Assembly: GCF_900178525.1 (NCBI RefSeq)
Contig: NZ_FXDJ01000007.1
Coordinates: forward strand, 496,001 to 560,000
DNA length: 64,000 bases
From: Massilibacteroides vaginae
Lineage (GTDB): Bacteria; Bacteroidota; Bacteroidia; Bacteroidales; Tannerellaceae
Direction: 5' to 3'
The notes under the pieces were generated by a model, which worked only from the letters and a program-made list of their open reading frames with translations, searched no databases and was not told the origin of the DNA. A program made the translations under genes and the position numbers. Below are positions 17,633 through 57,500 of this stretch, piece by piece. Every line of letters begins with the position of its first letter. The stretch's first letter is position 1.

Positions 17633-18076
17633 TTAACGATTGAAAAAGACATAACGAGGTTCGGTTGGTATATAGTCATCATCGTCCCAAAGACTACTGG
17701 TAAGCATCAGGTCGGCACTATAGCGATTGCAGGCAATCGGCACATTATGCACGCGGCATTGGCGTAATAACATTTGAATATCCGCCTCATGAGGTTGAGG
17801 ATTCAAGTCGTCGATCAGGAATATTGCCAGGTTAACTTCTTTACGAACAACCATAGCCGCAATTTCAGCATCACCTCCCATTGGTCCGGAATGCATGCGC
17901 GTTATATCCGCGTCAATACCTTTCTCATTAAAAGCCTCCGCGATAAGTCCTCCGGTTGTTCCGGTACATACCAAATGATGCACAGCAAGGAAATCCGCGT
18001 TATGCACTGCCCATTCTACCATATCAGCTTTGCGGTTATCATGCGCAACCAAAGCAATCGTCAATTTCTTTTTCAT
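17633..18076 (-). CDS. mgsA: Methylglyoxal synthase
   Basis: This 147-residue protein converts dihydroxyacetone phosphate to methylglyoxal and phosphate. The family hallmarks are present: IALVAHDNRK at the N-terminus with His12, the phosphate-binding TGTTGG at about 38-43, SGPMGGDAEI with the probable catalytic Asp69, and IDDLNPQPHEAD with Asp89 and His96. Length is close to the 152 residues of the E. coli enzyme. Its place between cimA (18 bp) and leuB (34 bp) in a leucine operon is unusual, since its reaction is a glycolytic bypass. It would be co-transcribed with the leu genes under the same attenuator. Confidence 0.93.
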   Translation of the reverse strand: MKKKLTIALVAHDNRKADMVEWAVHNADFLAVHHLVCTGTTGGLIAEAFNEKGIDADITRMHSGPMGGDAEIAAMVVRKEVNLAIFLIDDLNPQPHEADIQMLLRQCRVHNVPIACNRYSADLMLTSSLWDDDDYIPTEPRYVFFNR

Positions 18077-18094: not shown

Positions 18095-19606
18095 TTATCC
18101 TTCAATCCGGTTCAGCATTTTCAATGTTGCCTTAATAGCAGCTTCCGTCTGGTCTGCATCAAGTCCTCTCGTTTTGAAATCCACCCCCGCGTAATTCCAA
18201 CTAATAATTGTTTGCACAAAGGCATCTGTTCGCCCACCCGGCGGAATAGAAACCGAATAGTTGGTTAACATCGGGAAAGGTCTTCTCAGGTCGGCATAGA
18301 TTTTACGGAGAGCTCTTACAAAGGCATCATACTGTCCGTCTCCGGAAGCAGACTCTTCATAAGCTACCCCTTCAATCTCTATCTTCAAAGAAGCGACCGG
18401 CTTTAAACCTTGTGCCAAAGATAACGAATAATTCAGTATCTTAATCTTCTGATCTTCCATCCCGTCATGGTTCAACACATCACTAACGATGTAAGGCAGG
18501 TCTTCACTGGTAACCATTTCTTTGCGGTCGCCCAGTTCGATGATACGCTCTGTCACTTTACGCATGGATTCTTCATCCAGTTCTATACCCAGCGCTTCTA
18601 AATTTTTACGGATATTCGCTTTTCCCGATGTTTTTCCTAACGCATATTCACGAACGCGTCCGAAACGTTCCGGCAGAAGCTCATTACAGTAAAGATTATT
18701 CTTATTATCGCCATCCGCATGAACACCTGCACATTGTGTAAACACATGTTCGCCAACAACCGGCTTATTCGGAGATAAACGTATTCCTGAATAAGTTTCA
18801 ACCATGCGGCTGATCTTATTTATTTTAGATTCTTTCAGGTTTGTTTCCTCTCCCAATTGATCTTTGAGGACTGCCAGCACACTACTCAGGGGTGCATTTC
18901 CGGCACGTTCTCCCAAACCGTTAACCGTTGTATGAATGCCTTTAATACCCGCCCGGACTGCCGAATAAACATTAGCCACAGCCAGATCGTAATCATTATG
19001 CGCATGAAAATCAAATCGGATATCCGGATATTTCTTTACCATTAGCGAACAGAAATCAAACGTTTTCCACGGATCCAGAACGCCTAAGGTATCAGGAAGC
19101 ATAAAACGTTTGATCGGTAAATCCTTCAATCCGTCTATGATCTGATAAACATACTCCGGAGAGTTCTGTATCCCATTCGACCAATCCTCCAGGTAGATAT
19201 TGATACCGATATTTTTCTGATCTGCAATCGCTATAACCGCCCGTATATCCTCAATATGTTGTTCCGGGGTTTTGCGTAATTGTTCGGTCACGTGTTTGTA
19301 TGATCCCTTACAGAGCAGATTCACCACGCGACAGCCGGCATCCTCAATCCATTTGATCGAGGCTCCTCCGTCAACAAAACCCAGCACTTCCAGCTTATCT
19401 AAATAACCTGATCGTCGTCCCCAATCCGCCAGCTTTTTAACAGAGTCATACTCACCGTTGGACACCCTGGCCGAGGCAATCTCAATCCGGTCTACTCCCA
19501 CTTCAGACAGAAGCATCTGGGCAATCCCGAACTTCTCATGCGGTGCAAAAGACACACCAGACGTTTGTTCCCCGTCCCTTAGGGTGGTATCCATTATTTC
19601 TACCAT
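18095..19606 (-). CDS. cimA: (R)-citramalate synthase (LeuA-like family, probable CimA)
   Basis: This 503-residue member of the isopropylmalate/homocitrate synthase family starts [17 protein letters not shown]. The metal-binding segment is DFHAHNDYDLA (near residue 200). GLGERAGNAPL and VGEHVFTQCAGVHADGDNKN follow. A C-terminal LeuA-type allosteric domain starts near residue 385. The run RIEIASARVSNGE, VLGFVDGG, YLEDWSNGIQNSPEYV and LLPERFGR follows the Leptospira CimA sequence as I remember it, much more closely than LeuA. It would condense pyruvate with acetyl-CoA to citramalate, opening a threonine-independent route to isoleucine that reuses LeuC, LeuD and LeuB. Assignment by motif, not by alignment; a second leuA is the alternative. 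Confidence 0.82.
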   Translation of the reverse strand: MVEIMDTTLRDGEQTSGVSFAPHEKFGIAQMLLSEVGVDRIEIASARVSNGEYDSVKKLADWGRRSGYLDKLEVLGFVDGGASIKWIEDAGCRVVNLLCKGSYKHVTEQLRKTPEQHIEDIRAVIAIADQKNIGINIYLEDWSNGIQNSPEYVYQIIDGLKDLPIKRFMLPDTLGVLDPWKTFDFCSLMVKKYPDIRFDFHAHNDYDLAVANVYSAVRAGIKGIHTTVNGLGERAGNAPLSSVLAVLKDQLGEETNLKESKINKISRMVETYSGIRLSPNKPVVGEHVFTQCAGVHADGDNKNNLYCNELLPERFGRVREYALGKTSGKANIRKNLEALGIELDEESMRKVTERIIELGDRKEMVTSEDLPYIVSDVLNHDGMEDQKIKILNYSLSLAQGLKPVASLKIEIEGVAYEESASGDGQYDAFVRALRKIYADLRRPFPMLTNYSVSIPPGGRTDAFVQTIISWNYAGVDFKTRGLDADQTEAAIKATLKMLNRIEG

Positions 19607-21701: not shown

Positions 21702-23198
21702 TTATTTCACAAACTTATTTATCGCGTCAATAAAAGCCTCTACCGAAGCGGCAATTATATCGGTATTAGCAGAAAATCCATAATAATGATTTCCTTCATA
21801 TTCCACCTGCATGTGTACTTTACCTACGTCGTCACTACCCTTATTGATCGCCTGAATCAGGAATTCCTGAATTACCATTTGCCGATGAATAATTGTTTTG
21901 ACAGCTTTAATAGCCGCGTCTACCGGTCCGTTTCCTGAAGCAGCCGCTTCAAACTTCTCTCCGGCAATATCCAGACAAACACTGGCAACAGACTGCACGC
22001 CCACTCCGGAAGTTACCTGCAAATAATCTAACTTGATGCGGTGCATAGCAGTACGGTCTTTTCCAACCAACATTAACACATCATCATCATTGATATCTTT
22101 TTTTCGGTCAGCCAATTTAAGGAATTCTTCGTAAACCGTGTCTAATTTCTCCTGACTTAGTTCTACCCCTAAAATCTGCAGACGATGTTTCAATGCCGCA
22201 CGTCCGCTACGGGCAGTCAACACAATCGCGTTGTCATCTATACCTACGTCTTTCGGATCGATAATCTCATAACTCTCACGATTTTTCAATACCCCATCCT
22301 GATGAATACCGGAAGAGTGCGCAAAAGCATTTCGCCCTACAATCGCCTTATTCGGTTGAATAGGCATATTCATCAGGCTGGAAACCATCCGGCTCACATT
22401 ATATATACGTTTTGTATTTATATTGGTTTCAATGCCCCGTTCCTTGTGGCTTTTAAAGATCATGGCAATCTCCTCCAAAGAAGTATTACCGGCCCGTTCG
22501 CCTATACCATTCATGGTTACCTCTACCTGACGGGCACCGTTAAGTACTCCCTGAATTGTATTTGCAGTAGCCATACCCAAGTCGTTATGACAATGAGTAG
22601 AAAGAATCGCGTTATGCACACCGTTTACATGTTCCATCAGGTACTTAATCTTCGCGCCGTATTCATCGGGCAGGCAATAACCGGTTGTATCCGGAATATT
22701 CACAACTGTTGCTCCGGCTTTAATTACCGCCTCAACCACACGAGCCAGATAAGCATTGTCGGTACGTCCGGCATCTTCACAATAAAACTCTACGTCTTCA
22801 ACAAATTGCTTGGCGTATTTTGTCGCTGCAATAGCCCGTTCCAGAATATCGTCCTGATTGGAGTTAAATTTATGTTTTATATGATAATCCGAAGTTCCGA
22901 TACCTGTATGAATACGTCCTCTTTTTGCATACTTAAGCGCGTCTGCCGCCACCTCAATATCTTTCTCTACCGCACGGGTTAGCGCACAAATCACCGGCCA
23001 GGTTACCGCCTTTGAAATCTCAACCACACTACTAAAATCACCCGGACTGGAGACAGGGAATCCTGCTTCAATCACATCAACACCTAATTCTTCCAAAGCC
23101 TTTGCCACTTGAATTTTTTCTACTGTATTCAATTGACATCCGGGCACCTGCTCACCATCACGCAGCGTTGTATCAAAAATAAACAATCTGTCAGACAT
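21702..23198 (-). CDS. leuA: 2-isopropylmalate synthase
   Basis: This 498-residue enzyme condenses 2-ketoisovalerate with acetyl-CoA, the first step of leucine synthesis. It starts with [18 protein letters not shown]. The metal-binding segment is [15 protein letters not shown] and [16 protein letters not shown] follows. [16 protein letters not shown] marks the (beta/alpha)8 barrel end. The last 120 residues form the LeuA allosteric domain that binds leucine ([14 protein letters not shown]). It is first in its operon and is preceded by a leader peptide and attenuator at 23241-23388. It is thus likely to be controlled by leucine both by feedback and at the level of transcription. Confidence 0.97.
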
Positions 23199-23240: not shown

Positions 23241-23280
23241 AAAAAAGCCCTTCTCACAAGGAAGTGAGAAAGGCTTTTTT
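23241..23280 (-). terminator. Attenuator terminator of the leu operon
   Basis: On the minus strand the RNA reads AAAAAAGCCUUUCUCAC, loop UUCCUU, then GUGAGAAGGGC with a U6 run. The stem is strong and lies between the leader peptide stop codon (23314) and leuA (23198). The 5' arm plus loop, CUCACUUCCU (23268-23259), is perfectly complementary over 10 bases to AGGAAGUGAG at the leader stop codon (23322-23313), giving a mutually exclusive antiterminator. Being bidirectional in sequence, it also has an A run on the opposite side. Confidence 0.88.
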
Positions 23281-23313
23281 ATATTTTCATACGCTCAATT
23301 AAGCACAACAATC

Positions 23314-23388
23314 TCACTTCCTAACCTGTATCCAGAGTAGAATATTAATTAGAGAAATAAGGAGATTATTTGTTGTTACACTTATCAT
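23314..23388 (-). CDS. leuL: Leader peptide of the leu operon (attenuation peptide)
   Basis: This short ORF starts with ATG at 23388 and ends with TGA at 23314-23316, giving 24 residues. Five are Leu, five Ile and two Val. They are concentrated in the segment LLISLINILLWIQV. The ORF starts about 30 nt downstream of a TAnnTTTG promoter and ends 33 bp before a terminator hairpin. Its last codons, AGG AAG and the stop TGA, are part of the antiterminator sequence. Stalling at Leu/Ile/Val codons would leave that sequence free to pair with the terminator arm. Normal translation would cover it and let the terminator form. The composition and the fit of pairing and position make chance unlikely, but no expression data are available. 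Confidence 0.85.
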   Translation of the reverse strand: MISVTTNNLLISLINILLWIQVRK

Positions 23389-23417: not shown

Positions 23418-23425
23418 CAAAGATA
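23418..23425 (-). promoter_or_regulatory. Promoter -7 box (TATCTTTG) of the leu operon
   Basis: On the minus strand TATCTTTG precedes the leader peptide start by about 30 bp. A TTG on the minus strand at 23444-23446 lies 18 bp upstream, near the -33 position. The predicted leader RNA is about 215 nt before leuA. Confidence 0.75.
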
Positions 23426-51160: not shown

Positions 51161-51313
51161 ATTAATTGTCGCCAACCGGATTTTCCGGTTGACCCAATAA
51201 AAACCGGCAATCAAGCATTCGAAAATGTAAGCTATTAACGATTAAATATTGATAAATGAAAGAGGCAATAGTGTTTTTCTTTTAAATTATTTTGGCGAAA
51301 TAAATTATTATTC

Positions 51314-51321
51314 TACATTTG
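51314..51321 (+). promoter_or_regulatory. Promoter of the ilv operon (TACATTTG)
   Basis: TACATTTG fits TAnnTTTG. A TTG at 51292-51294 lies 19 bp upstream, which fits the -33 element. The leader peptide start is 34 bp downstream of the box. Confidence 0.8.
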
Positions 51322-51354
51322 CATCATCAAACAAGTGATTAAAAATTGAAATTA

Positions 51355-51417
51355 ATGACAAACAGTATTTTACATAACATTATTCTCGTGGTGGTCCTTC
51401 TAGTCATTAGTAGGTAA
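51355..51417 (+). CDS. ilvL: Leader peptide of the ilv operon (attenuation peptide)
   Basis: An ATG at 51355 opens a 20-codon frame ending with TAA at 51415-51417. Thirteen of the 20 residues are Ile, Leu or Val, ten of them in the unbroken run IILVVVLLVI. It is very similar in type to the ilvGMEDA leader of enterobacteria. It lies between the ilv promoter and a terminator ahead of ilvD. The bases just after its stop (GAGAAAGG, 51420-51427) pair with the terminator arm CCTTTCTC (51468-51475). This allows an antiterminator when ribosomes stall in the Ile/Leu/Val codons. Too short for standard gene finders and not found by homology; composition and position carry the call. Confidence 0.88.
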   Translation: MTNSILHNIILVVVLLVISR

Positions 51418-51463
51418 GCGAGAAAGGTGTGTAAGATGTTGTATGCGTAATTAAGATATACTT

Positions 51464-51496
51464 AAAGCCTTTCTCAAATTAGAGAAGGGCTTTTTT
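51464..51496 (+). terminator. Attenuator terminator of the ilv operon
   Basis: AAAGCCTTTCTC (51464-51475), loop AAATTA, then GAGAAGGGCTTT and a T run to 51496. The stem is nearly identical to that of the leu attenuator. CCTTTCTC in the 5' arm can pair instead with GAGAAAGG at 51420-51427. Confidence 0.88.
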
Positions 51497-51548: not shown

Positions 51549-53384
51549 ATGAAAGATTCGTTGAGGAGTTCGTTCAGCACACAAGGTCGCCGCATGGCGG
51601 GAGCACGTGCACTCTGGCGTGCCAACGGCATGAAGGAAGAGCACTTGGGAAAACCAATTATCGCGATTGTAAATTCGTTTACTCAATTTGTTCCGGGACA
51701 TGTACATCTGCATAATATCGGACAAATGGTTAAGGAGGAAATCGAAAAGTTGGGTTGCTTCGCGGCTGAATTCAATACAATTGCGATTGACGATGGAATT
51801 GCAATGGGACATGATGGCATGTTGTATTCACTGCCTTCGAGAGATATCATAGCGGACAGTGTAGAATATATGGTAAACGCTCATAAGGCGGATGCGATGA
51901 TATGTATAAGCAATTGCGATAAGATAACGCCGGGAATGCTCATGGCAGCCATGAGATTAAATATTCCGGCGATTTTTGTATCCGGAGGTCCGATGGAAGC
52001 CGGAAACGCAGAAAACGGAAAGCACCTTGACTTGATTGACGCCATGGTAAAAGCGGCTGATGACAATGTGTCTGATGAAGAGGTGAATAAAATTGAACGC
52101 TCGGCATGTCCTACATGCGGCTCTTGCTCCGGCATGTTTACGGCAAATTCCATGAACTGTCTGAATGAAGCAATAGGGCTCGCGCTTCCGGGAAACGGAA
52201 CTGTACTTGCAACTCACGAAAACCGTTTTCGCTTATTCAAAGATGCTGCCGCTATAATTGTTAAGAATGCTTATAAATACTATAGTGAAGGAGACGACAG
52301 TGTGTTGCCTCGATCAATCGCCACAAAGACCGCGTTTATGAACGCAATGGCGCTGGATATTGCTATGGGCGGCTCAACCAATACGGTTCTTCACCTTTTA
52401 GCGATAGCCCACGAAGCAGAAGTTGACTTCACGATGGATGATATGGATAAACTTTCACGTAATACGCCTTGTTTATGTAAAGTGGCTCCGAATACTGATA
52501 AATATTACATTCAAGATGTAAACCGCGCCGGAGGTATTCTCTCCATCATGGGAGAATTAGCCAAAGGCGGTTTAGTCGACACTTCGGTAAAGAGAGCCGA
52601 TGGTTATACGCTGGCTGAAGTGATTGCCAAATACGGCATCACAAGTGAGCAGGTATGCGAAGAGGCACTAAACTTATATAAATCCGCACCCGGCAATAAA
52701 TTCAATATTGTAATGGGATCTCAGAATGCTTATTATGACACATTGGATGATGATCGTGCAAACGGTTGTATCCGCAGTGTTGATCATGCTTACACAAAAG
52801 ATGGCGGATTAGCTATTTTGAAAGGAAACATCGCATTGGATGGTTGTGTTGTTAAAACCGCCGGTGTAGATGAAAAGATATTAAAATTTACCGGTCGCGC
52901 GGTGGTGTTCGATTCACAAGACGCGGCTTGCTATGGAATATTACGTGGTGACGTTAAAGCCGGTGATGTGGTAGTTATTACCTATGAAGGTCCGAAGGGC
53001 GGACCGGGTATGCAGGAAATGCTCTACCCCACATCGTATATCAAATCCCGCCATTTGGGTAAAGAGTGCGCGCTGATTACAGACGGACGTTTCTCCGGAG
53101 GAACTTCCGGTCTTTCAATCGGGCACATTTCACCGGAGGCAGCTGCCGGAGGAGCTATTGGCTTGGTCAGAACAGGAGATATTATTGAAATAAACATTCC
53201 TGAACGTAGTATTAATGTAAAACTAAGTGATACAGAATTAGCCACACGTCGTACTGAAGAGGAGGCAAAAGGGAATAAAGCTTTTACCCCTCCGGTGCGT
53301 GAACGTAAAGTGTCCAAGGCCTTACAAGCGTATGCTAAGATGGTATCATCCGCAGATAAAGGGGCGGTACGTATTTTTGATTAA
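51549..53384 (+). CDS. ilvD: Dihydroxy-acid dehydratase
   Basis: This 611-residue Fe-S dehydratase makes the 2-keto acids of valine and isoleucine from their dihydroxy precursors. Family motifs are [29 protein letters not shown], the second Cys region [51 protein letters not shown] and [20 protein letters not shown]. Three Cys-containing segments provide the cluster. It is the first structural gene after the attenuator and is followed by ilvB at 17 bp. Length is typical of the bacterial enzyme. Confidence 0.97.
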
Positions 53385-53401: not shown

Positions 53402-55102
53402 ATGGAGAAACAGATGATAACCGGTTCGGAAGCTTTACTGAAGACTTTGGTTGCTGAAGGTGTAGATACAATATTTGGTTACCCCGGTGGGGCGATTATG
53501 CCCGTTTACGATTGTTTATACAGCTATAGAGATAAGATTCGTCACGTGCTTGTAAGACACGAACAAGGTGCTACACATGCTGCTCAGGGATACGCACGTG
53601 TATCCGGAAAACCAGGCGTTGCATTGGTAACTTCGGGTCCTGCGGCTACAAATGCTATAACCGGAATTGCGGATGCATTGATGGATAGCACTCCGCTTGT
53701 TGTGATTTCCGGACAAGTGGCATCGCCTTTGTTAGGTTCTGATGCCTTTCAGGAAATAGATGTTATCGGAATTACATTACCCATTACAAAATGGGCGTAT
53801 CAGGTACGACGTGCCGAAGATGTAGCCTGGGCTATCTCGCGTGCTTTTTATATAGCTTCTTCCGGTCGTCCGGGACCTGTGGTTATTGATATTGCCAAAG
53901 ATGCTCAGATAAATAAGGTAGAATATGAGTATAAAAAAATAGATTATATTCGAAGCTATCAACCACGTCCGGATGTAAATACAGACCATATATCCGCAGC
54001 AGCAGAGTTAATTAATCAGGCAAAAAAACCGTTGGCTTTAGTTGGTCAAGGTGTAATTTTAGGAAATGCCGAAAAAGAATTAATCAACTTCCTTGAAAAA
54101 GCGGATATTCCTTTTGGTTCAACCATACTCGGACTTTCTGCAGTGCCGACCGATCATCCATTAAATAAAGGTATGCTGGGTATGCACGGTAATGTAGGTC
54201 CTAACCGTAAAACAAACGAATGTGATTTGCTGATTGGTATAGGCATGCGTTTCGACGACCGTGTTACCGGAGATTTGAAAACATACGCTAAACAAGCGAA
54301 AATCATTCACTTTGATATTGATCAGGCAGAGATCGGTAAGAATGTATTGCCTACCGTTCCTGTACTGGGAGATGCGAAAGATACTTTAGCCGCGGTAACC
54401 AAACTCCTAAATCCGGCTAAACATACAGAATGGATTGCAACCTTTCAACCGGACGAACAGGAAGAAGATCAGAAAGTTATTCAAAAAGAATTATTTCCTG
54501 AAACAGGTCCCTTGAAGATGGGCGAAGTGATCAATAAAGTATCAGAAGCGACCGGACACGATGGTATTCTGGTTACTGATGTAGGTCAGAACCAAATGAT
54601 GGGTGTTCGCTATTTTAAATATAAACGTACACGTAGCGTAGTAACTTCCGGAGGATTAGGCACGATGGGCTTCGGACTTCCTGCGGCTATCGGAGCAAAA
54701 ATTGGTGCTACCGATCGTACTGTGTGTTGTTTCCTTGGTGACGGTGGATTTCAGATGACAATTCAGGAACTGGGCACCATCATGCAGGAAAATACAAATG
54801 TGAAGATCATTGTTCTAAACAACAACTTCCTCGGGATGGTACGCCAATGGCAGGAATTGTTTTTCGACGAACGTTATTCGGAAACAAATATGCTGAATCC
54901 GGACTTTGTGGCCATTGCGAAAGCCTATAATATAGAGGGACGTGTGGTAGAAAAACGCGAAGAACTGGATGGTGCTATTCAGGAAATGCTAAACCATGAC
55001 GGTGCATATCTGTTAGTGGCAACCATTGAAAAATGCGGTATGGTGTATCCTATGATACCAGCCGGATCAACTGTTACGAATATAATAATGGGCGATAACT
55101 AA
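53402..55102 (+). CDS. ilvB: Acetolactate synthase, large catalytic subunit
   Basis: This 566-residue thiamine diphosphate enzyme joins pyruvate with pyruvate or 2-ketobutyrate. Seen are the N-terminal TPP domain GVDTIFGYPGGAIMPVYD, RHEQGATHAAQGYARVSGKP, TSGPAATNAITGIADA and the C-terminal domain with GTMGFGLPAAIGAKIG, GDGGFQMTIQELGTIMQENT and NNNFLGMVRQWQELFF. The TPP-binding GDG...NN pattern is intact. It pairs with the regulatory subunit encoded 12 bp downstream. As the first committed enzyme it is expected to be under valine feedback and ilv attenuation. Confidence 0.97.
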   Translation: MEKQMITGSEALLKTLVAEGVDTIFGYPGGAIMPVYDCLYSYRDKIRHVLVRHEQGATHAAQGYARVSGKPGVALVTSGPAATNAITGIADALMDSTPLVVISGQVASPLLGSDAFQEIDVIGITLPITKWAYQVRRAEDVAWAISRAFYIASSGRPGPVVIDIAKDAQINKVEYEYKKIDYIRSYQPRPDVNTDHISAAAELINQAKKPLALVGQGVILGNAEKELINFLEKADIPFGSTILGLSAVPTDHPLNKGMLGMHGNVGPNRKTNECDLLIGIGMRFDDRVTGDLKTYAKQAKIIHFDIDQAEIGKNVLPTVPVLGDAKDTLAAVTKLLNPAKHTEWIATFQPDEQEEDQKVIQKELFPETGPLKMGEVINKVSEATGHDGILVTDVGQNQMMGVRYFKYKRTRSVVTSGGLGTMGFGLPAAIGAKIGATDRTVCCFLGDGGFQMTIQELGTIMQENTNVKIIVLNNNFLGMVRQWQELFFDERYSETNMLNPDFVAIAKAYNIEGRVVEKREELDGAIQEMLNHDGAYLLVATIEKCGMVYPMIPAGSTVTNIIMGDN

Positions 55103-55114
55103 GGAGGAAAGAAT

Positions 55115-55669
55115 ATGTTTACAAGAAAATTATATACAGTGATCATCTTTTCCGAAAACACGGTAGGTTTATTAAATCAGATAGCGATTATCTTTACTCG
55201 TCGTCAGTTAAATATTGAAACACTATCGGTTTCGCCTTCTGCAATTGAGGGCATCCATAAGTTTACGATCACAACTTTCTCCACGGAAGAGATCATGGAT
55301 AAAGTGGTTAAGCAAATAGACAAACGAGTAGATATTCTGAAAGCGTATTACAATACGGATGAAGACCTTGTTTTTCAGGAAATCGCACTTTACAAACTAA
55401 GCACTGAGTCATTCCTGAAGATGGGAACAGTCGAAGAGTTGATCCGCAAGTACAACGCGCGTATTCTCGAGATGAACGAAACCTGTGTTGTGCTTGAAAA
55501 GAGCGGTCATTATGAAGAAACGCAAGGGCTCTTCAAAGAATTGAGTAGTACGATCGGTGTATTGCAATTTATCCGTTCAGGACGCGTGGCAATTACAAAA
55601 AGTAAAGTAGAACGCTTGAGCGATATGCTTGCCCAAATGGAAAGCAAGCTCGAAAAGAAGCATTCCTGA
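55115..55669 (+). CDS. ilvN: Acetolactate synthase, small regulatory subunit
   Basis: This 184-residue regulatory subunit has an N-terminal ACT domain (YTVIIFSENTVGLLNQIAII, then RRQLNIETLSVSPS), which binds valine, and a C-terminal ACT-like region (LEKSGHYEETQGLFKELSST, then GVLQFIRSGRVAI). It activates the large subunit and gives end-product inhibition. The ATG has a strong ribosome site, AAGGAGGAAAG. It is directly after ilvB and is followed 12 bp later by the thioesterase gene. Confidence 0.95.
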   Translation: MFTRKLYTVIIFSENTVGLLNQIAIIFTRRQLNIETLSVSPSAIEGIHKFTITTFSTEEIMDKVVKQIDKRVDILKAYYNTDEDLVFQEIALYKLSTESFLKMGTVEELIRKYNARILEMNETCVVLEKSGHYEETQGLFKELSSTIGVLQFIRSGRVAITKSKVERLSDMLAQMESKLEKKHS

Positions 55670-55681
55670 AATATATAAATC

Positions 55682-56407
55682 ATGGTAAAAGAAGGCGTAT
55701 TTCATTTTATTACCGAATCGTATCTTTTAGACTTCAAAGGAAGGGTTCCTCTTCCTATGATCGGCAATTATTTACTACATGCGGCATCTTCACACGCCGG
55801 CGAACGGGGCTTCGGCTATACCGATATGACTAAAAAGCATACCGCCTGGGTACTTTCCCGCATGGCTGTTGAGATGTATGAATATCCCAAAATGTCAGAA
55901 GAAATAACATTGCTTACTTGGGTGGGTGATGTAGGACGGTTGTTTACGGAGCGTTGCTTTGAACTGCAGAACAAAGACGGCAAACCGTTTGGGTTCGCCC
56001 GTTCTATCTGGGCAGCTATTGATCTCGAAACACGCAGGCCAACCATTCTTGATGTTGAAGGATTGAGTTCATACATCAGCGAACGAACCTGTCCGATAGA
56101 AAAACCCGGTAAGATACATGCAGTAGAAAGCAATACGCCCGACACTTCTTTTACCGTGAAATACAGCGATCTCGACATCAATAAACATTTGAACAGCATC
56201 AAGTATATCGAACACTTGCTGGATAATTTTAACATGAAGATGTTTGAAGAGAAAGAAATTAGCCGATTCGAGATCGCATACCAAGCGGAAGGACATTACG
56301 GAATGGAGTTGAATATCCATTCAAAACAAACAGAAGCTGAACACTACAACATGGCAATCACGCACGACGGGAAAGCGATCTGTAGAGCATCAGTAACCTG
56401 GAAATAA
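55682..56407 (+). CDS. Acyl-ACP thioesterase (FatA/FatB-like double hot-dog fold)
   Basis: This 241-residue protein has two hot-dog halves as in acyl-ACP thioesterases. The first contains HTAWVLSRMAVEMYEYPKMS and LTWVGDVGRLFTERCFELQN. The second contains the catalytic-type segment VKYSDLDINKHLNSIKYIEH with Asn and His. It cleaves acyl chains from acyl carrier protein. Its place between ilvN and ilvC in the isoleucine/valine operon is remarkable, because branched-chain keto acids also prime iso- and anteiso-fatty acids. A role in that overlap is an inference. It is translated with a 12-bp gap from ilvN and lies 46 bp ahead of ilvC. Confidence 0.9.
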   Translation: MVKEGVFHFITESYLLDFKGRVPLPMIGNYLLHAASSHAGERGFGYTDMTKKHTAWVLSRMAVEMYEYPKMSEEITLLTWVGDVGRLFTERCFELQNKDGKPFGFARSIWAAIDLETRRPTILDVEGLSSYISERTCPIEKPGKIHAVESNTPDTSFTVKYSDLDINKHLNSIKYIEHLLDNFNMKMFEEKEISRFEIAYQAEGHYGMELNIHSKQTEAEHYNMAITHDGKAICRASVTWK

Positions 56408-56453: not shown

Positions 56454-57500
56454 ATGGCAATAATGAATTTTGGCGGTGTAGAAGAGAACGTAGTTACCCG
56501 CGAAGAATTTCCTTTGGAAAAAGCAAGAGAAGTATTAAAAAACGAAACCATCGCGATAATTGGTTATGGCGTACAAGGACCGGGCCAGAGTCTTAACCTG
56601 CGCGACAACGGCTTTAACGTAATTGTTGGTCAACGTAAAGGTGGAAAGACTTGGGACAAAGCCGTAGCAGACGGTTGGGTACCGGGAGAAACGCTTTTCG
56701 AAATCGAAGAAGCTTGCGATAAAGCAACCATCATCCAATATCTTCTTTCAGACGCTGCTCAAATTGAAGTTTGGCCACGCATCAAACAATACCTGACTCC
56801 GGGTAAAGCATTGTATTTTTCTCACGGATTCGGAATCACCTATAAAGAACGTACAAATATCATTCCTCCCGCAGATGTTGATGTTATCCTTGTTGCTCCT
56901 AAGGGATCCGGAACAAGCCTTCGTCGTATGTTCCTTCAGGGACGCGGTTTGAACTCAAGCTACGCAATCTTCCAGGATGCGACAGGACGCGCGAAAGAAC
57001 GTGTTGTTGCATTAGGTATTGGGGTTGGATCGGGCTACTTGTTCGAAACAACATTTAAGAAAGAAGTATTCTCAGACCTTACCGGAGAACGCGGTACGCT
57101 GATGGGTGCAATCCAAGGACTTCTTTTGGCTCAATTCGAAGTATTGCGTGAAAACGGTCACTCTCCTTCAGAAGCATTCAACGAAACAGTTGAAGAGCTA
57201 ACTCAATCACTGATGCCGTTATTTGCAGAAAACGGAATGGACTGGATGTATGCCAACTGTTCAACAACTGCTCAACGCGGTGCTTTGGACTGGATGACGC
57301 CTTTCCACGATGCCACTAAACCAGTATTCGCGAAACTATACAACGAAGTAGCCAGCGGAAACGAAGCACAACGCTCAATCGACACAAACAGCAAGCCGGA
57401 CTACCGCGAAAAGCTGGAAGAAGAACTTAAAGCTCTTCGTGAAAGCGAAATGTGGCGTGCCGGAGCCGTAGTACGTAAACTTCGTCCGGAAAATAATTGA
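56454..57500 (+). CDS. ilvC: Ketol-acid reductoisomerase
   Basis: This 348-residue enzyme rearranges and reduces 2-acetolactate to 2,3-dihydroxyisovalerate, using NAD(P)H and magnesium. The N-terminal Rossmann domain has IAIIGYGVQGPGQSLNLRDN followed by VGQRKGGKTWDKA, the cofactor-selecting loop. The C-terminal knotted domain has the catalytic acidic residues in FSDLTGERGTLMGAIQGLLL and FNETVEELTQSLMPLF. The Gly-Pro in the first motif differs from the His-Ala seen in E. coli. It is the last gene in the operon and is followed by a bidirectional terminator. Confidence 0.96.
   Translation: MAIMNFGGVEENVVTREEFPLEKAREVLKNETIAIIGYGVQGPGQSLNLRDNGFNVIVGQRKGGKTWDKAVADGWVPGETLFEIEEACDKATIIQYLLSDAAQIEVWPRIKQYLTPGKALYFSHGFGITYKERTNIIPPADVDVILVAPKGSGTSLRRMFLQGRGLNSSYAIFQDATGRAKERVVALGIGVGSGYLFETTFKKEVFSDLTGERGTLMGAIQGLLLAQFEVLRENGHSPSEAFNETVEELTQSLMPLFAENGMDWMYANCSTTAQRGALDWMTPFHDATKPVFAKLYNEVASGNEAQRSIDTNSKPDYREKLEEELKALRESEMWRAGAVVRKLRPENN

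Follow-up and report, generated by a model that had tools for sequence, protein, structure and literature searches.

The 64,000-nucleotide stretch of DNA analysed here (hereinafter the window) carries on its plus strand an operon with the order ilvD-ilvB-ilvN-(acyl-ACP thioesterase)-ilvC, namely ilvD (dihydroxy-acid dehydratase; 51549-53384; NCBIfam TIGR00110), ilvB (acetolactate synthase large subunit; 53402-55102; TIGR00118), ilvN (acetolactate synthase small subunit; 55115-55669; TIGR00119), the thioesterase gene between ilvN and ilvC (55682-56407; Pfam PF01643 and PF20791) and ilvC (ketol-acid reductoisomerase; 56454-57500; NCBIfam TIGR00465), all assigned above the respective cut-offs. 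Upstream of ilvD lies a predicted leader peptide frame, MTNSILHNIILVVVLLVISR (51355-51417, plus strand), which opens with ATG and runs for 20 codons to a TAA stop exactly where the first-pass annotation had placed it, and whose putative regulatory codons are those for Ile, Leu and Val; by the NCBIfam assignments, the products of ilvD, ilvB, ilvN and ilvC synthesise the very amino acids that it encodes. Ile, Leu and Val make up 12 of the 20 residues, a correction of the 13 counted earlier, and include the unbroken 10-residue run IILVVVLLVI that had been reported. When the intergenic region was shuffled 3000 times, a short ATG frame with an Ile/Leu/Val run of at least 10 arose once. The frame is preceded by a predicted Bacteroidota-type promoter (51292-51321, plus strand), in which a TTG (51292-51294) is separated by a 19-nt spacer from TACATTTG (51314-51321); both of the elements first proposed for it are therefore present. 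Among 107 loci examined, a TAnnTTTG motif lies at most 110 nt 5' of the leader ATG in 100 (9.4 expected from shuffles), at a median distance of 30 nt, with a TTG at promoter spacing upstream of it in 96.

Within the frame and between it and ilvD we recognise, all on the plus strand, the segments of a candidate attenuator. Segment 1 (UUCUCG, 51383-51388) is part of codons 10-12 and pairs in the minimum-energy fold with segment 2 when the ribosome is absent. Segment 2 (CGAGAAAGGUG, 51419-51429) begins one base past the stop codon; its core, GAGAAAGG (51420-51427), begins two bases past it. Segment 3 is the 5' arm of the terminator (51464-51475) and contains CCUUUCUC at 51468-51475, while segment 4 comprises the 3' arm and the U-tract (51482-51496); both are recognised from sequence, fold and relatives, and segment 3 is the pairing partner of segment 2. 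The terminator annotated ahead of ilvD at 51464-51496 was recovered as a hairpin of 12 pairs (51464-51493) followed by the U-tract, and is the sole one in the region (0.4 expected in shuffles). The 176-nt leader as a whole folds with z = -5.0, and the pattern GAGAAAGG-N20-50-CCTTTCTC, of which the second element is the partner at 51468-51475, occurs once in the 3.71-Mb genome, in this leader.

We compared the ilvD upstream regions gathered from both named and same-family genomes, as the first-pass annotation had proposed, and found the leader frame conserved in relatives. Of 87 usable same-family loci, about 74 have a leader before ilvD, typically MMNNVLHIILVVVLLVISR; two of these leaders, one of which begins with GTG, were identified by eye. 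Diverged versions precede ilvD in Bacteroides and Phocaeicola (NLAVLHIIRVVVV), and other diverged leaders in Paludibacter, Alistipes, Odoribacter, Marinifilum and Prolixibacteraceae; nearly all leader-bearing relatives keep an intrinsic terminator after the leader and ahead of the first gene. The leader is missing before similar ilvD genes in Desulfobulbaceae, spirochaete and rumen Prevotellaceae-type loci, and some same-family genomes also lack the element. Seven such Prevotellaceae-type loci, and others like them, have a closely similar ilvD with no recognisable leader, which suggests that the leader was lost or replaced in this branch. We also observed tandem leader-terminator units before ilvD or another ilv-type gene at six loci, each unit with its own Ile/Leu/Val-rich peptide. 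The earlier caution that no homology can be claimed stands for the enterobacterial leaders considered below; within Bacteroidota it was excessive, since leader, frame and alternative pairing are conserved in the family, recur in diverged form across Bacteroidales and stand next to ilv genes in further classes of the phylum, and homology is evident.

The substitutions in these leaders bear on a rival explanation, namely that the strong terminator preceding ilvD is constitutive, unregulated and partial, and that the short frame is incidental. Across 32 distinct family leaders, 68% of single-base codon differences are synonymous in frame; read in either of the other frames, 17% and 4% are. Third codon positions are the most variable, and the stop alternates between TAA and TGA. 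A coding constraint of this kind on the leader frame, an Ile/Leu/Val richness that survives heavy sequence divergence, and a stop codon held beside segment 2 would be hard to account for were the terminator merely constitutive, and we consider this explanation very improbable. Attenuation by a ribosome translating the leader, the reading that we favour, depends in addition on an alternative fold that excludes the terminator.

Such a fold, in which GAGAAAGG pairs with CCTTTCTC of the terminator arm, had been predicted at the outset and does exist by folding, with its pairs standard in 96% of alignment cells. In the 58-sequence alignment, 96.3% of cells at the 8 core pairs of the 2:3 helix hold standard pairs; two-sided changes occur at 4 core pairs versus 0.7 in shuffles (e.g., GAGAATGG/CCATTCTC in locus L066 and GGGGAAAGG/CCTTTCCCC in L130). 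These changes are few, with one sequence each, because the core of the switch is nearly invariant, and the overall covariation score of this alignment is not above that of its shuffles. Indeed, GAGAAAGG (within 51419-51429) and CCTTTCTC (51468-51475) are nearly invariant across Bacteroidales, which may reflect bases serving several alternative pairings, or an extra constraint. For the idea that GAGAAAGG is a Shine-Dalgarno-like site pairing with the 16S 3' tail, the tail pattern assumed was not found in the genome sequence, and we do not claim such a role. In most loci GAGAAAGG starts between -5 and +4 nt relative to the end of the stop codon, and its partner is the terminator 5' arm. Folding further uncovered a third state beyond the two of the first-pass annotation, in which the leader codons pair with GAGAAAGG when the ribosome is absent.

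The ribosome states were modelled by folding the truncated transcript with the ribosome footprint masked, a thermodynamic stand-in for co-transcriptional kinetics. At the ilv locus, the probability of 2:3 pairing in this model is about 0 for the ribosome-free transcript and about 0.88 with the ribosome at codons 1-17; with the ribosome at the stop codon it is 0 by construction, since segment 2 is masked, and the evidence for that state is accordingly the conserved spacing between the stop codon and segment 2. Over 103 loci, the median values are 0.05 ribosome-free, 0.70 averaged over the Ile/Leu/Val run and 0.00 at the stop codon. In the ribosome-free ilv transcript, segment 2 is paired to the leader with a probability of 0.83-0.86. 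Shuffling the codon order abolishes this 1:2 pairing (0 of 100 shuffles match the observed value), and shuffling segment 2 together with the spacer abolishes the 2:3 pairing (0 of 100 reach the observed value); the state-dependent pairing thus rests on the actual sequence. In several relatives (e.g., L001, L003 and L120) the 2:3 helix is already formed ribosome-free in the model, and the 1:2 state is accordingly not shared by all loci.

The covariance model built from the ilv leader also matches a second region of the same window, at 23388-23239 on the minus strand (56 bits, E 1.9e-10), where sequence and mask folding indicate an attenuator built like the ilv one ahead of leuA. Its predicted components, all on the minus strand, are a -7 box TATCTTTG (23418-23425; by consensus only), a leader frame MISVTTNNLLISLINILLWIQVRK with 5 Leu, 5 Ile and 2 Val (23314-23388), a segment 2 (GAAGTGAGA, 23312-23320) that overlaps the TGA stop codon and whose pairing partner in the terminator is TCTCACTTC (23269-23261), and the terminator itself (23241-23280; sequence and fold). 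Mask folding puts the probability of 2:3 pairing at 0.01 ribosome-free, at 0.97-0.99 when the ribosome occupies codons 4-19, and at 0.00 once it is on the stop codon. The downstream gene, leuA (21702-23198, minus strand; NCBIfam TIGR00973 above cut-off), is the first of a leuA-leuC-leuD-cimA-like-mgsA-leuB cluster, in which leuD is named by position and sequence only. Within this cluster lie, again on the minus strand, a methylglyoxal synthase gene (17633-18076) and a citramalate synthase-like gene (18095-19606), the protein of the latter scoring below its family's cut-off. Thirty same-family loci were examined, and most have a comparable leader (e.g., NSLIISLNIILLWERDRK) before leuA. The leader residues track the cluster products: Ile, Leu and Val for ilv, and Leu with Ile for leu, whose cluster includes the citramalate (isoleucine-route) enzyme, assigned below its family cut-off. 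The same genome further encodes a match to the Bacteroid-trp leader, MNRNIVNTYWWRFLQLQRS, at C2:655709-655844 (77.9 bits). We also observed a histidine leader, MKRINLHHHHHCIADIVR, about 150 nt 5' of hisG (contig C1 near 641 kb, minus strand). With ilv, leu, his and trp leaders in one genome, leader-peptide attenuation looks like a general device there.

The leu, his and trp leaders of this genome carry residues that change with the pathway; this is consistent with codon sensing, and speaks against the proposal that the ilv frame encodes a functional hydrophobic small protein to which the RNA fold is secondary. The peptide is indeed hydrophobic and conserved in the family; between genera, however, it is chiefly the composition that is kept (MKFNLSLILNIIIILVVIIRT, MTNLSLHLINILMLVVLCHDVRKVYLME), its length varies while its position relative to segment 2 is retained, and it has no Pfam match, so that a small protein of this kind appears a most doubtful candidate. 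Control of branched-chain genes in other phyla is exerted by T-boxes or protein regulators, yet a ligand-binding riboswitch, T-box or protein-bound leader acting here in place of ribosome stalling is scarcely credible, given the strong codon content of the leader, an alignment that shows nothing resembling a conserved aptamer core beyond the leader frame and segments 2-4, and no Rfam match at gathering score here or in 18 loci of relatives.

What we propose instead, with a probability of roughly 0.94, is that the leader acts on the ilvD-ilvB-ilvN-thioesterase-ilvC operon as a ribosome-mediated transcription attenuator. It combines the features by which such attenuators are recognised: an Ile/Leu/Val-rich frame predicted to be translated, a terminator and a 2:3 pairing exclusive with it, a stop codon placed to block segment 2, and downstream genes of the same pathway. 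Anatomy, conservation and the model folding of three states all uphold the original reading of the region as an ilv leader peptide with an attenuator. We infer the transcription start, the translation of the leader, the stalling and the regulated readthrough from sequence. RNA polymerase would start about 25-30 nt 5' of the leader ATG, with a ribosome trailing it into the 20-codon leader. A shortage of charged Ile-, Leu- or Val-tRNA would stall the ribosome at codons 5-17, so that it covers segment 1 and leaves segment 2 (GAGAAAGG) free to pair with segment 3 (CCUUUCUC), whereupon no terminator would form and the operon would be transcribed. When Ile, Leu and Val are all plentiful, the ribosome would reach the stop codon and cover segment 2, and segments 3 and 4 would fold into the terminator; in an untranslated leader, segment 1 would pair with segment 2, again giving the terminator.

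We used the same covariance model to survey a wider range of genomes. It matched 145 of the 295 genomes searched in the order and 97 of the 296 searched in the phylum, where the weaker hits include partial ones that are possibly plain terminators. All 30 loci returned in the order survey lie before one of two genes, 28 before ilvD and 2 before leuA. Twelve loci were examined at the phylum level; in 7 of them the contig carries a divergent ilvD, at about 34-41% identity, and leaders of the type of MLNNLLLINVILLVLISKPR or MQISIIIISVVVVNVFSTSAAGMV occur there. On balance we lean towards a single ancestral family of branched-chain attenuator RNAs in Bacteroidota, outside Rfam 15 and with a near-invariant GAGAAAGG/CCTTTCTC core in Bacteroidales, which would control ilv and leu operons across classes and, in several lineages, would have duplicated to give tandem attenuators. 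If this is true, transcription and translation would have to be closely coupled on leaders whose start lacks a Shine-Dalgarno sequence. Bacteroidota are a dominant gut phylum, the regulation of amino-acid synthesis in them is poorly mapped, and their genes mostly lack Shine-Dalgarno sequences. Classical attenuation requires a ribosome close behind the polymerase, and such leaders therefore make the question of coupling directly testable in the phylum.

Searches of Rfam 15 at gathering score gave no match for the ilv leader or the window, nor for 18 loci of relatives; a T-box identity was likewise rejected, there being no match at gathering score to a T-box or any other Rfam family. The weak matches (E up to 10) were to Bacteroid-trp (23.5 bits) and Phe_leader (23.2 bits), both far under the cut-off, which for Bacteroid-trp (RF01692) is a gathering score of 49 bits. 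This tryptophan peptide leader RNA of Bacteroidetes shares with the ilv leader a short frame, a hairpin over the codons and a terminator, and differs from it in codons and core sequences. Among branched-chain systems, the Corynebacterium ilvB-II/ilvBNC upstream frame is likewise a conserved frame regulating ilv genes, albeit actinobacterial and with a different first gene (PMC10272879); the Staphylococcus aureus leucine-rich peptide also attenuates branched-chain genes, in a Firmicute and together with CodY (PMC5794164). The open literature searched contained no ilv or leu leader of Bacteroidota, though Vitreschak 2004 and Lopatovskaya 2010 (Mol Biol 44:128, cited in PMC4833913) may hold predictions for Bacteroidetes. 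Signs of leader-peptide attenuation at amino-acid operons in Flavobacterium psychrophilum (PMC9723704) and short frames in long leaders of Bacteroides thetaiotaomicron (PMC7366714) are mentioned in no detail. A 2013 survey that names an Ile/Val attenuator class proposed a gamma-proteobacterial origin for amino-acid attenuators, transfers being very few (PMC3766115). Against this background, we find one attenuator design widely before the ilv and leu operons of Bacteroidota, alongside his and trp leaders in one genome. The mechanism is classical, and its phylum-wide ilv example is absent from the RNA family database Rfam. In enterobacteria, the ilvL leader of ilvGMEDA is a multivalent attenuator responding to Ile, Val and Leu. 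Like the leader described here, it has an Ile/Leu/Val-rich peptide and competing antiterminator and terminator folds, and serves the same pathway. Our leader is shorter (20 codons versus about 32), is preceded by a predicted Bacteroidota promoter, and heads an operon of a different gene order, which starts with ilvD and includes ilvB, ilvN and ilvC.
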